A stretch of DNA of 64,000 nt from NCBI GenBank assembly GCA_902798965.1, contig CADBYS010000002.1, positions 124,001 through 188,000 on the forward strand. The letters run 5' to 3'. The DNA comes from an uncultured Bacteroidales bacterium (GTDB taxonomy: Bacteria; Bacteroidota; Bacteroidia; Bacteroidales; Paludibacteraceae). Positions 24,162-53,443 of the stretch are shown piece by piece (positions within the stretch are counted from its first letter, which is position 1; each line of letters starts with the position of its first letter). The translations under genes and the position numbers were made by a program. The notes below the pieces were generated by a model. The model was not told where the DNA came from, did no database searches, and saw only the letters and a program-made list of their open reading frames with translations.

Positions 24162-25013
24162 TTATTCGAGTGTATCGTTGAAGATGACTGTGGATGCCAA
24201 ATCCTCCAGATTGTAATCGGCGAGCGTTGTTTGCTCCGCGTCATCTTCAAACAAAGCATACACCGTTGAACCGCTGCCGCTCATGGCAGCATAGAAAGCG
24301 CCTGCGTCTTGTAGGCGCTTTTTGATGCTCGCCAGTTCGGGATGCAAGGGGAAGACGGTACACTCAAAGTCGTTGTACAGTATATCGCCGTGACGAACCA
24401 GATCAATGGGCGTTACTCCTTGCTTTACCAAGGCAGCCAGCGAAGGTTTGTCGCCTGACAGACGTATACCCGAATATGCTTCGCGTGTGCTGACATGAAT
24501 GTCGGGTTTGAGCATCAACAAGTGCAAGCCGCCCAAGGAGAACGGTATAGGTGTCAGTCGCTCGCCTATTCCTTCTGCCAGGCAGGGAGTGTTATAGATA
24601 AAGAATGCACAATCTGCCCCCAGCGGACTAACCTCATCCGCCAACTGCTCACGGGTAAGATTCAGACTGAACAGCTCGTTCAATGCGATTGCCATATGGG
24701 CAGCATCGCTCGATCCGCCGCCAAGACCCGCACCGAACGGGATGCGTTTCTCGAAGCGAATCTGCACGTTGCCTATCTGTGGATAACGTGCCTGCATCCG
24801 GCGGTAACACTTCAGAATCAGATTGTCTTCTGCATCGCAATCCACAGCCAGACCTGTTTGCTCAAAGCGGAAATCGGCTGCGGCTGTAACCATCAATACA
24901 TCGTATAGTCCCATTACGGGGTAGAAGATCGTCTCCAGGTTGTGATAACCGTCATCGCGTTTGCTGATAATGCGCAAACCGACATTAATCTTGCAGTTGG
25001 GGTAAAGTATCAT
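24162..25013 (-). CDS. ispE: 4-diphosphocytidyl-2-C-methyl-D-erythritol kinase
   Basis: 283 residues of the GHMP kinase family. It phosphorylates CDP-ME in the MEP isoprenoid pathway, whose ispF is also in this window (41.4 kb). Signatures are YPNCKINVGLRI, the GHMP glycine loop FGAGLGGGSSDAAH, and AAMSGSGSTVYALF near the C-terminus. Its start overlaps the end of trmN6 by 4 bp, so the two are probably co-transcribed. Confidence 0.96.
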   Translation of the reverse strand: MILYPNCKINVGLRIISKRDDGYHNLETIFYPVMGLYDVLMVTAAADFRFEQTGLAVDCDAEDNLILKCYRRMQARYPQIGNVQIRFEKRIPFGAGLGGGSSDAAHMAIALNELFSLNLTREQLADEVSPLGADCAFFIYNTPCLAEGIGERLTPIPFSLGGLHLLMLKPDIHVSTREAYSGIRLSGDKPSLAALVKQGVTPIDLVRHGDILYNDFECTVFPLHPELASIKKRLQDAGAFYAAMSGSGSTVYALFEDDAEQTTLADYNLEDLASTVIFNDTLE

Positions 25014-25807
25014 AAGTAAAAATCTTTTGTCAGTTGTTGATATGCCTCACTTCGTCCGCCATGTTCATTCTCTAATATCAATTTTTCATACGGAGCAAAC
25101 GAATTTCCTGAGGCTGAATGCTGCCATGCATATAGCACGCGTTTCGTGGGGAATCCCGGTTTGGAATGTACTTTACAATTCTTAATACATGTTAGTTGGT
25201 TTTCCTCGGCCAAACCGATTAGCAGTTGTTCTGCCTCAATCGGTGCGATGATCGAGAGTATTCCGTCGGGCGCAAGCCGTTTGGTGCTTTCCGACATCAA
25301 TTCATCGAAAGGCAGTGAGTCGGTATGTCGCGCCATGCATCTTCTCGCATCGGGGTTCTTGAGACTGTTCACGAAGTACGGCGGATTGCTGACAATCAAG
25401 TCATAGTCTTTCCCTTCCCATTCTTGCAGCGCGCATTGAGTTGCATGCAGTCGGTCAGTCCATGGCGAAACGGCAAAGTTATCGCGTGCCTGCATGTAGG
25501 CGGCTTCATCTATATCAATGGCATCAATCTGCGCTTCTGCACAACGCTGCGCCAGCATCAAGGCAATCAATCCGCAGCCCGTTCCTACATCCAGAATCTT
25601 ATATATTGGGGTCCCCGACACAACATGTGTTGTGGTGGGGAGAGCGGAGGCATTGCCGCCTTTTATGCCGTTTTCGGCATCTGTGGCGGTAATTGCCGAA
25701 CGCGTAGGTGCCCACGCGCCAAGCAGCACCCCATCGGTGCCCACCTTCATCGCACACAGGTCGTGACGGACAAAGAACTGCTTGAAGCGAAACCCCTCAT
25801 TACTCAT
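25010..25807 (-). CDS. trmN6: tRNA1(Val) A37 N6-methyltransferase with in-frame element insertion
   Basis: 265 residues of the TrmN6/YfiC family. It methylates A37 of a tRNA using S-adenosylmethionine. The N-terminus FRFKQFFVRHDLCAMKVGTDGVLLGAW, SAM motif ILDVGTGCGLIAL and catalytic IVSNPPYFVN are intact. Residues about 34-67, between GAWA and KILDVG, are encoded by a structured repeat (25606-25706) also found at 52961-53092; relatives have only a short linker there. The frame is kept, so the enzyme may still work. It overlaps the upstream permease gene by 8 bp. Confidence 0.9.
   Translation of the reverse strand: MSNEGFRFKQFFVRHDLCAMKVGTDGVLLGAWAPTRSAITATDAENGIKGGNASALPTTTHVVSGTPIYKILDVGTGCGLIALMLAQRCAEAQIDAIDIDEAAYMQARDNFAVSPWTDRLHATQCALQEWEGKDYDLIVSNPPYFVNSLKNPDARRCMARHTDSLPFDELMSESTKRLAPDGILSIIAPIEAEQLLIGLAEENQLTCIKNCKVHSKPGFPTKRVLYAWQHSASGNSFAPYEKLILENEHGGRSEAYQQLTKDFYL
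25606..25706. repeat. GGGGTCCCC structured element, copy A (inside trmN6)
   Basis: It starts TTGGGGTCCCCGACACAA and ends TTGCCGAACGCGT. Predicted folds are an ACAACA/TGTTGT stem closing near CCCC/GGGG, and ATTGCCGCC pairing with GGCGGTAAT around an inner hairpin ATGCCG-TTTT-CGGCAT. Shared blocks with copy B include GCGGAGGCA and CGGCATCTGT. Confidence 0.88.
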
Positions 25808-51702: not shown

Positions 51703-52950
51703 TTAGCGAATAACAGCCAGAATCTGCTCGGCAATCTGCTCTTTGGCTGCCAATGGCAGACGATGGCTCTCAACATCCGTCGGCTGACAGTTGTCGGCCG
51801 TATGCTTATATACAGTCACGCTGTTGGTATCCGTGCCGAAGCCAGCGCCTTGCTCGCGCAGACTGTTCATTACAATATAATCAAGGTGTTTGGTTTGTAG
51901 TTTCTTGAGCGCATTCTGCTGCTCGTTGTCGGTCTCCAAAGCGAAACCGACCAGTGTTTGTCCGGGGCGTTTGCTTTCCCCCAGACTGCGGGCTATATCC
52001 TTCGTCTCTTTCAGGGTGATGACGTTCGTCAGGTCTTGCCCTTTTTTCATCTTGTGGTCAGCAACCGTGGCAGGTGTCATATCCGCCACTGCTGCGGCTA
52101 AGATAGCCATATCCGCCTCTTGCCATGCAGCCATCGTCGCCTCGTACATCTGTTGTGCGGATACGACATCGATGCGTCTGCACGAGCCTACGCCCTGCAT
52201 AGCAGGGTGGTACAGTACAGGCGACCAGTGTTCGGTCGTTACGCCCATCACCAGCGTCACGTCTGCGCCGTGATGCATCCACGCCTTAGCCAACGCTATG
52301 CCCATCTTCCCCGACGAGTGGTTGCTAATGAACCGCACAGGGTCGATAGCTTCACGCGTAGCACCGGCTGTGATCAACACATGCCTTCCAAGTTTGTCTT
52401 TCGGTGTCAGCGCAGCCTCCACAGCATCCAGCAGCACCTCGGGCTCTTGCATCCTTCCTCGGCCGTTCGTGCCGCATGCCAGGAACCCTTCTGCGCAATC
52501 TAACACATCTACGTTCGGCCGTTGTGCCAACGTCCGCATCGCCTCTTGCAACGCATCGCCGCTGTACATCTGATCGTTCATCGCCGGCGCTATCACCACA
52601 GGCTTGCGCATCGCTGCCAGTGTTGTGGTCAGCGCGTCGTCGGCTATGCCGGCTGCGTACTTGCATATCACATCGTGCGTGGCGGGGGCTACAATCATCG
52701 CATCCGCCCACACCGGCAAGGATATATGCTCGGTCGAGTGGTCATTGATGGCGGCAAACACATCGCTATATACCTTGTTTCCGCTCAGCGTCTGCAAGGT
52801 CAGGTCGGTCACGAACTCCAAAGCATGCTTTGTGGTCGTGACTTTCACTTCCGCTCCGCGCTTGCGAAGCAGACGAATAAGTTCGGGAATCTTGTATGCC
52901 GCAATTCCCGAACCTATACCTATTACTATATGCTTGCCGTTTATGTTCAT
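51703..52950 (-). CDS. coaBC: Bifunctional phosphopantothenoylcysteine decarboxylase/synthase
   Basis: 415 residues from MNINGKHIVIGIGSGIAAYK (52950); an upstream in-frame ATG at 53010 lies within a repeat element and is rejected. CoaC domain: active His in HISLPVWAD, the PAMN-like APAMNDQMY and the Cys-bearing flap. CoaB domain: TAGATREAIDPVRFISNHSSGKMG. Together they make 4-phosphopantetheine from 4-phosphopantothenate for coenzyme A. It follows rpoZ and bamD, the usual Bacteroidota order. Confidence 0.96.
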   Translation of the reverse strand: MNINGKHIVIGIGSGIAAYKIPELIRLLRKRGAEVKVTTTKHALEFVTDLTLQTLSGNKVYSDVFAAINDHSTEHISLPVWADAMIVAPATHDVICKYAAGIADDALTTTLAAMRKPVVIAPAMNDQMYSGDALQEAMRTLAQRPNVDVLDCAEGFLACGTNGRGRMQEPEVLLDAVEAALTPKDKLGRHVLITAGATREAIDPVRFISNHSSGKMGIALAKAWMHHGADVTLVMGVTTEHWSPVLYHPAMQGVGSCRRIDVVSAQQMYEATMAAWQEADMAILAAAVADMTPATVADHKMKKGQDLTNVITLKETKDIARSLGESKRPGQTLVGFALETDNEQQNALKKLQTKHLDYIVMNSLREQGAGFGTDTNSVTVYKHTADNCQPTDVESHRLPLAAKEQIAEQILAVIR

Positions 52951-52960
52951 GTTGGCTTTT

Positions 52961-53092
52961 TTGGGGTCCCCGACACAAAATAATCGACATCGCTCACGAT
53001 GGAGAACCATTTATTTTGTGGTGGGGGGAGCGGAGGCAATCGTGCGCTTTATGCCGCAAGGCGGCATCTGTTAGCGCGATTTGCCGAACGCG
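52961..53092. repeat. GGGGTCCCC structured element, copy B
   Basis: It starts TTGGGGTCCCCGACACAA and ends TTGCCGAACGCGT. The arms AATCGTGCGC and GCGCGATT pair around ATGCCG-CAAGG-CGGCAT; ACAAAATAA pairs with TTATTTTGT. It fills the gap between the rpoZ stop and coaBC, about 30 nt longer than copy A. Confidence 0.88.
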
Positions 53093-53443
53093 TCAGCGCA
53101 ACATCTCGTCACGATTGCCGTTGTTGCAAACGATCTGATTGTCAATCAGCTCTTGCGTGGCAATCAACGTAGCCTTAGGTAGAATCTCGTACGAACGCGA
53201 GATCTCGATCTGCTCCTTGTTCTCGAATGTCTCTTCGATATCGCCGCGGTCAACACTGAAGTCTTGCAGCTTGTTGTCCAACTCCTTTTTCAGCGATGCG
53301 CTGATCTGATTGGCGCGCTTGCCGATGATAGCTACAGCCTCATATACGTTGCCCACGCGGCTGGCCAAATCGTTCATGTCACGTGTGATGGTCGTCTTTG
53401 GAGCTTTGCTCTTCTTGTAATCCAAATTAAATGATGGAATCAT
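53093..53443 (-). CDS. rpoZ: RNA polymerase omega subunit (Rpb6-like)
   Basis: 116 residues of the Bacteroidota omega type: LDYKKSKAPKTTITRDMNDLASRVGNVYEAVAIIGKRANQIS, then a helical, acidic tail. Omega aids RNA polymerase assembly. Its position between bamD and coaBC is the standard one. The stop codon lies against the repeat element downstream. Confidence 0.88.
   Translation of the reverse strand: MIPSFNLDYKKSKAPKTTITRDMNDLASRVGNVYEAVAIIGKRANQISASLKKELDNKLQDFSVDRGDIEETFENKEQIEISRSYEILPKATLIATQELIDNQIVCNNGNRDEMLR

Follow-up and report, generated by a model that had tools for sequence, protein, structure and literature searches.

A dispersed two-hairpin repeat of a Bacteroidales genus, read in frame within trmN6 and often flush at one end with tRNAs, promoters and codons

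Palindromic repeats that code for protein are known in Rickettsia and Wolbachia. In the passages of the papers drawn on here, the Rickettsia palindromic elements are described as structured sequences of ~100-150 bp that occupy spacers, lie in frame in conserved protein genes and occur inside two RNA genes (PMC2229807, PMC3767692, PMC10969869); the excerpted description of one source gives them a long stem-loop and terminal inverted repeats, of 12 bp in its table (PMC2229807). REP and the GTAG- and CGTC-tagged repeats form hairpins that are mostly transcribed and frequently lie near ORF 3' ends or, in some cases, within ORFs; a GTAG end often provides the stop codon, and the closeness of REP to stop codons is already published (PMC3733652). 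A further set, ERIC, RUP and Correia/NEMIS, consists of small non-autonomous elements with terminal inverted repeats and target duplications, some of them fused to ORFs according to the same kind of excerpt (PMC2229807). Among openly licensed papers, no repeat such as the one presented here was found described in Bacteroidales, nor any repeats flush with tRNA ends.

The locus lies in a window of 64,000 nucleotides, the whole stretch of DNA that was analysed. A sequence-only reading had placed a 101-bp structured repeat at 25606..25706, inserted in frame into trmN6, and a second copy at 52961-53092. The sequence is present at both places, with the conserved units trimmed to 25608-25704 (97 nt) and 52963-53092. 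The covariance model R1, of 107 positions, detects these two strong copies (A and B) in the window and one other match at E 1.3. The features are listed below in window coordinates.

25010..25807, minus strand: trmN6-like methyltransferase ORF, 265 aa, with copy A in its linker (NCBIfam TrmN, Pfam MTS)
25608..25704, plus strand: element copy A (GGGG..CGCG), two hairpins (R1 96.7 bits, E 6.9e-20)
25612..25641, plus strand: hairpin 1 of copy A, CCCC-GA-CACAAC / GTTGTG-GT-GGGG, the coordinates taking in one flanking base per side (inverted repeat, fold, covariation helix 1)
25644..25704, plus strand: hairpin 2 of copy A (fold, covariation helices 2-5)
51703..52950, minus strand: ORF downstream of copy B, with a deduced start (ORF table); product presumably CoaBC-like
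52963..53092, plus strand: element copy B, 130 nt, longer hairpin 1 (R1 107.8 bits, E 2.5e-22)
53093..53443, minus strand: 116-aa ORF (ORF table); product which we take to be RNA polymerase omega-like

Read from the GGGGTCCCC end, the element opens with hairpin 1, composed of CCCC, variable arms and GGGG, and continues with AGAGCGGAGGC, variable arms, an inner loop, a top stem and finally TGCCGAACGCG. The ends are GGGGTCCCC on one side and CGAACGCG(A) on the other, and the length is mostly ~95-130 nt. In copy A, which is read in frame on the minus strand within trmN6, the base of hairpin 2 (GCG-GA-GGC / GCC-GAA-CGC) is conserved and the arms are variable. On the plus strand both copies fold better than 200/200 shuffles, with z of -5.1 for A and -4.2 for B; on the minus strand the values are -6.6 and -3.4, and 2/200 shuffles equal copy B. 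The CGCG end of copy B (53092) directly adjoins the stop codon (53093-53095) of the 53093-53443 ORF. The mechanical ORF for the gene on its other side begins at 53010, inside copy B, and the GGGG end is 12 nt away from the likely start, the ATG at 52950. A longer form of the element, in which extra sequence separates hairpin 1 from hairpin 2, occurs at loci L041 and L284, and the contig end cuts L285. An Rfam identity for the element was rejected: neither the window nor the element in eight loci has a family match that reaches the gathering score, and around copy A there is none at E<=1.

The source genome holds 37 R1 matches at E<=1, 30 of them at E<1e-9, well beyond the two copies first noticed; with the covariation described below, these matches led to the rejection of chance similarity between two loci. 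In the genus sample, 30/37 genomes (the source genome included) match at E<=0.01 and 7/37 are without any match, and two copy-rich relatives, G001 and G034, give 34 and 24 matches from assemblies that, like the others, are fragmented. None of 24 genomes from other families matches at E<=0.01. An order sample of 198 genomes partly repeats those 24 and includes two genomes of other genera of the family; there the source genome alone matches at 1e-4 (0/197 others), under strict filters that give 19 matches in it instead of 37. A pattern scan of a species collection yielded at least 119 stretches, and the 80 titles among the matches listed read Bacteroidales, Bacteroidia, Paludibacteraceae and, for one assembly, Prevotellaceae, many of them from rumen or gut; these assemblies presumably belong to the same genus as the genus-sample genomes. 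Across these searches the repeat family is seen in one Bacteroidales genus only, and its public relatives are rumen or gut assemblies, many labelled Paludibacteraceae. A viral collection gave one match (L259:8426-8501), in a 10-kb contig that may be a true phage.

The arms of the copies had been said to differ in sequence while keeping their pairing, and this covariation is borne out by wider alignments. Across 16 copies from the source genome, 92.7% of cells are paired vs 77.5% when shuffled, with 0/500 shuffles as high; changes on both sides occur in 18/31 pairs and amount to 61 double-change cells, and sliding the partners by 1-3 columns leaves 34-46% paired. An alignment of 94 distinct copies (80 loci of relatives) is 89.2% paired, with double changes in 28/31 pairs and 680 cells; having been fitted to the model it leans towards it, and slid controls of 35-46% show the margin. 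Paired changes of this kind could stem from mutation rather than selection if template switching copied changes from arm to arm, and the arms do differ blockwise among copies with pairing kept. We consider this origin rather unlikely, given that a T-G wobble is kept at one pair in 8/16 copies and that the inner loops are conserved; wobble counts, moreover, give no clear pointer to one strand.

The in-frame insertion of a structured repeat in trmN6 stands, on the strength of the genome-wide copies, the covariation, insert-free relatives and further open frames. With its insert the protein scores 221.8 bits against NCBIfam TrmN, under the cut-off of 350, and matches Pfam MTS. A match to the protein is present in 41/41 genus genomes, where some matches may be related methyltransferases. 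The stretch from MKVGTD to DVGTG spans 58 residues here; among 27 relatives parsed by script, of 29 loci tried, it spans 26-42 residues in 26 and 52 in one, which corresponds to a net gain of 16-32 residues vs the 26 and of 6 vs the remaining one. The inserted residues are absent from these relatives. Of the initial reading, ~34 extra residues against a short linker, the insertion is real, but the linker of the relatives is itself hypervariable. The closest relative found (G001) carries a GCATTTT tandem repeat at the same linker point. Since the linker varies widely among relatives, the insert occupies a loop in which very different sequences are accommodated.

Most copies of the family lie outside proteins. 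A set of 186 non-identical copies was assembled from 30 in the source genome, 24 from relatives' loci L073-L101 and 132 from contigs picked by element sequence, not by flanks; source-genome matches beyond 30 of the 37, L097-L101 and two of 44 matches cut at a contig end were left out, and exact duplicates were merged. A mechanical screen of this set found 30 frames that stay open through the copy and for 40 codons or more to either side, a count that includes chance frames over tRNAs and second frames of one copy. All ten open-frame proteins chosen from it (10/10) have a Pfam match at E<=1e-5. The open-frame proteins are TrmN6, the Era GTPase, DapB (two genomes), an RND permease, an FAD-dependent protein, HypB/CobW, D-Ala-D-Ala ligase and DUF3987 (two genomes), the last a weaker case in that the domain match lies solely downstream of the copy. 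One DUF3987-type gene region (L177:638-2842) has two element copies in its reading frames. NCBIfam scores stay above the cut-off despite the insert for Era (352.1 vs 237), HypB (214.7 vs 121.2) and Ddl (258.4 vs 245.65); they fall below it for DapB (102.9 and 94.5 vs 122) and for the RND permease under its subfamily cut-offs, and no NCBIfam family matches the FAD-dependent or DUF3987 proteins at 1e-10. An insert-free orthologue was observed only in the cases of TrmN6, Era and the FAD-dependent protein, and in the latter two the bases by the left junction also differ in the insert-free orthologues. In the frames used, the element would read as an open peptide that is probably surface-exposed. 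RNA is interrupted as well: in the source genome, at L052:1412-1701, a copy lies within a cobalamin riboswitch aptamer, right after the conserved CUGUAA stretch, and Rfam still matches the riboswitch end to end (71.9 bits vs 31.5).

In 94/186 copies the CGAACGCG end lies flush against a functional boundary, and the other (GGGG) end does so in 7/186. The boundary classes were defined after inspection of the flanks, and controls under identical rules, in which the right flank was read 8, 15, 25, 40, 60 and 100 nt further, gave 8, 6, 7, 10, 1 and 2 of 186. The 94 comprise the following classes, in which one copy may count twice and a few members are due to chance, such as a start codon within the tRNA at L095.

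tRNA 5' end: 31
promoter box: 22
stop codon: 18
start codon: 14
tRNA 3' end: 7
rRNA-type leader box: 5

The other 92/186 copies fall in no boundary class; five of these, not added to the count, are flush by eye (two at tRNAs cut by a contig end, two at tmRNA ends and one at a possible TTG start). When similar right flanks are merged, 68/155 clusters are flush, and the source genome taken separately gives 17/30 copies. Where a tRNA 5' end is the nearest on the right within 300 nt, the gap is 0-3 nt in 31/31 copies with 16 anticodons; for tRNA 3' ends under the same limit it is 0-2 nt in 6/8, with 6 and 78 nt in the rest. Among nine tRNAs on the left of the element, the closest is 21 nt away. 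In the source genome, 9/40 tRNA genes have a copy that ends 0-3 nt upstream on the same strand. The promoter box CAAAnnTA stands exactly 4 nt off in 17/30 copies that have one within 60 nt, and on the left of the element it is spread across 10-52 nt. We take this box to be the Bacteroidetes -7 element, which would place the transcription start at the element edge, and the rRNA-type leader box GTTCTTTGA is presumably boxA. At a tmRNA 3' end, the end of copy L066 and the Rfam match share 3 nt.

The type of arm and the context of a copy are weakly associated (73/2000 shuffles as high; 177/186 copies typed). A subfamily with a near-constant hairpin 2 lies 0-2 nt ahead of the start codons of unrelated genes in 10/27 ATCGGT-arm copies, a count that excludes L163 with its possible TTG start. 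Its loci are L086, L128, L138, L140, L159, L162, L163, L167, L169, L215 and L218, and four of the listed copies have a common CCCTC...GGCAT stretch upstream. This subfamily might control translation. At L268, L286, L271, L278 and L279 only a piece of the 3' end is present, in the shortest case 11 nt (TGCCGAACGCG), and these pieces are truncated insertions or remnants of lost copies; the fragments of the CGCG end at L268 and L286 stand 2-3 nt upstream of a tRNA.

Filled and empty sites, paired by flank similarity, bear on how the flush position arises. At tRNA-Gln(ctg), the leader from promoter box to tRNA is 45 nt in both the filled (L095) and the empty (L130) genome, and these equal leaders indicate that the copy was inserted exactly between leader and tRNA; this is the cleanest empty site and shows insertion at the leader/tRNA junction. 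Other leaders measure, filled and empty, 52 and 53 nt at tRNA-Thr(cgt), 26 and 30 nt at tRNA-Gln(ttg), and 53 and 55 nt at an rRNA-type leader. Erosion after insertion, as a cause of flushness, is unlikely at L095/L130, L135/L088, L193/L209 and L203/L024, where leaders differ by 0-4 nt. It is possible at L069 and L149, two further filled tRNA-Gln(ctg) leaders of 36 and 40 nt vs 45 nt empty (9 and 5 nt shorter), and at L209/L193, L181/L215, L187/L161 and L162/L181, where the spacer differs. At several other sites the boundary spacer is different or shorter in the filled genome, as if replaced and not only interrupted, and these sites cannot tell insertion from replacement. Several of the element-free spacers (L181, L218, L176, L222), and the trmN6 linker of relatives, are filled with simple tandem repeats, for example of AATTTTTAA or GCATTTT, as if spacer sequence turned over fast in the genus.

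No target-site duplication was found in 181 copies, in which left/right matches of 2-8 nt are no more than 200 shuffles give. A terminal inverted repeat is likewise absent, the terminal 12 nt of the same number of copies having 40% inverted identity. In an alignment of flanks from 145 copies, positions -2 to -4 on the left are rich in A/T and -1 is T or C in 81%, and the right flank has A at +1 in 77%.

Leader, element and tRNA were folded together at the 31 tRNA 5' ends. The acceptor stem has a mean probability of 0.73 when the element stands as found, 0.44 when it is reversed and 0.76 when it is left out (28/31 informative), and the found orientation is better than the reversed in 20 and worse in 4. 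A first version of the test, in which five tRNAs were zero throughout, probably from too strict an indexing of the stem, gave means of 0.62 found, 0.43 reversed and 0.62 without the element; compared with the reversed element the found orientation did better in 19 cases and worse in 4, and compared with a shuffled one it did better in 23/31 and worse in 1. With the element shifted into the leader by 5-30 nt the means are 0.62-0.76 vs 0.73; for the shift of 10 nt, 13 of the 28 cases favour the flush position and 7 the shifted one. The folding model would thus fit the orientation and leaves the flush position unexplained; the idea that flushness comes from better tRNA folding is not supported, orientation alone being favoured.

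The exact flush position would reflect either target choice or a very strict selective filter. The insertion machinery may itself choose the position, an enzyme or guide recognising a boundary, be it the foot of a stem, the edge of a bubble or the place where an RNA-DNA hybrid stops, for instance; we give this somewhat less than an even chance. It would account for the narrow gaps at tRNA 5' and 3' ends and the fixed distance to CAAAnnTA, the best empty-site pair keeps its full leader length, and folding scarcely favours flushness. Weighing against it, start and stop codons, promoters, the leader box and the riboswitch are without a common DNA feature that was found, right flanks sharing A at +1 only, and later trimming is conceivable where leaders are shorter or spacers replaced. 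It is a tentative and more doubtful proposal that the machinery finds the edges of functional units by structure or by an RNA-DNA boundary, not by sequence, and so leaves its end 0-3 nt from tRNA 5' ends and a few nt from tRNA 3' ends, transcription starts and start or stop codons.

Placement next to tRNA 5' ends, start codons and the box of rRNA-type leaders would also suit a functional cis-acting RNA, a leader, insulator or regulator recruited at many genes rather than a selfish repeat, and the strong covariation and the near-constant-hairpin-2 subfamily ahead of start codons agree with such a role. The copies nevertheless occur in both orientations, in frames through proteins and in the aptamer of a cobalamin riboswitch, orthologous sites exist free of the element, and the genus includes genomes without a match; we hold this account to be improbable. 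Dispersed copies, arms that change in pairs, presence and absence at orthologous sites, the lack of a target duplication, open frames in conserved protein genes and a CGCG end flush in about half of the copies make it probable that the family consists of small, non-autonomous, structured mobile repeats. Some machinery would insert element DNA, and selection would retain those copies that cause little damage. A compact fold would be of use here, as it would sit beside an RNA without misfolding its partner, better in one orientation.

The mobiliser was sought in two ways, a search for PF01797 in 41 genus genomes and an inspection of 15 right-end places, and no mobilising gene was identified by either. 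PF01797 occurs in 17/41 genus genomes (13 over the cut-off) and is absent from G001 and G034, the genomes being incomplete; in this sample the presence of the domain does not seem to track copy number, and a Y1 transposase as the mobiliser has no clear link to the repeats. The search for an autonomous parent found the exact right end at 32 places and the reversed pattern at 5. The 15 of the 32 that were inspected include the extended or cut form (L284, L285), several likely chance occurrences in coding sequence and about five 3'-end fragments, and no carrier gene is obvious in the ~185 bases around them. The repeats would be REP-type elements if an IS200/IS605-like transposase (RAYT, Y1) mobilised them as single-stranded hairpins, and the hairpins, the many copies, the asymmetric ends and the A/T-rich left flank agree with this. 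We think it improbable, since PF01797 does not seem to follow copy number and the 16 aligned copies end in GGGGTCCCC and CGAACGCG, or near variants of them, with no GTAG or CGTC tag.

Of the REP, GTAG and CGTC repeats (RPE-4 and RPE-6 among them), REPs are palindromes of 20-40 bp with a tag at one end, whereas the element here has ~100 nt, no tag and an end flush with tRNAs. Prokaryotic MITEs resemble it in being small and non-autonomous, but neither a terminal inverted repeat nor a target duplication was found here. The likeness to Rickettsia palindromic elements drawn by the sequence-only reading extends to size, structure, dispersal in spacers and genes, and in-frame presence in conserved protein genes. 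It does not extend to the architecture of RPE-1 to RPE-3 and others, in place of which there are two separate hairpins and no terminal inverted repeat, nor to the host, which belongs to an unrelated phylum, nor to the end that lies flush with tRNA ends, promoters, and start and stop codons. The element works like Rickettsia palindromic elements but is not filed as a member, because it fails the description by a long stem-loop and terminal inverted repeats.

The family looks like an independent Bacteroidales case of such repeats, with many related genomes at hand, in which the question of how they enter working genes becomes testable through empty vs filled sites. The flush end points either to target choice of a new kind or to selection among insertions, of which it would give a striking measure of fineness. 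The tRNA leaders, start codons and riboswitches that bear this bulky fold are natural experiments.
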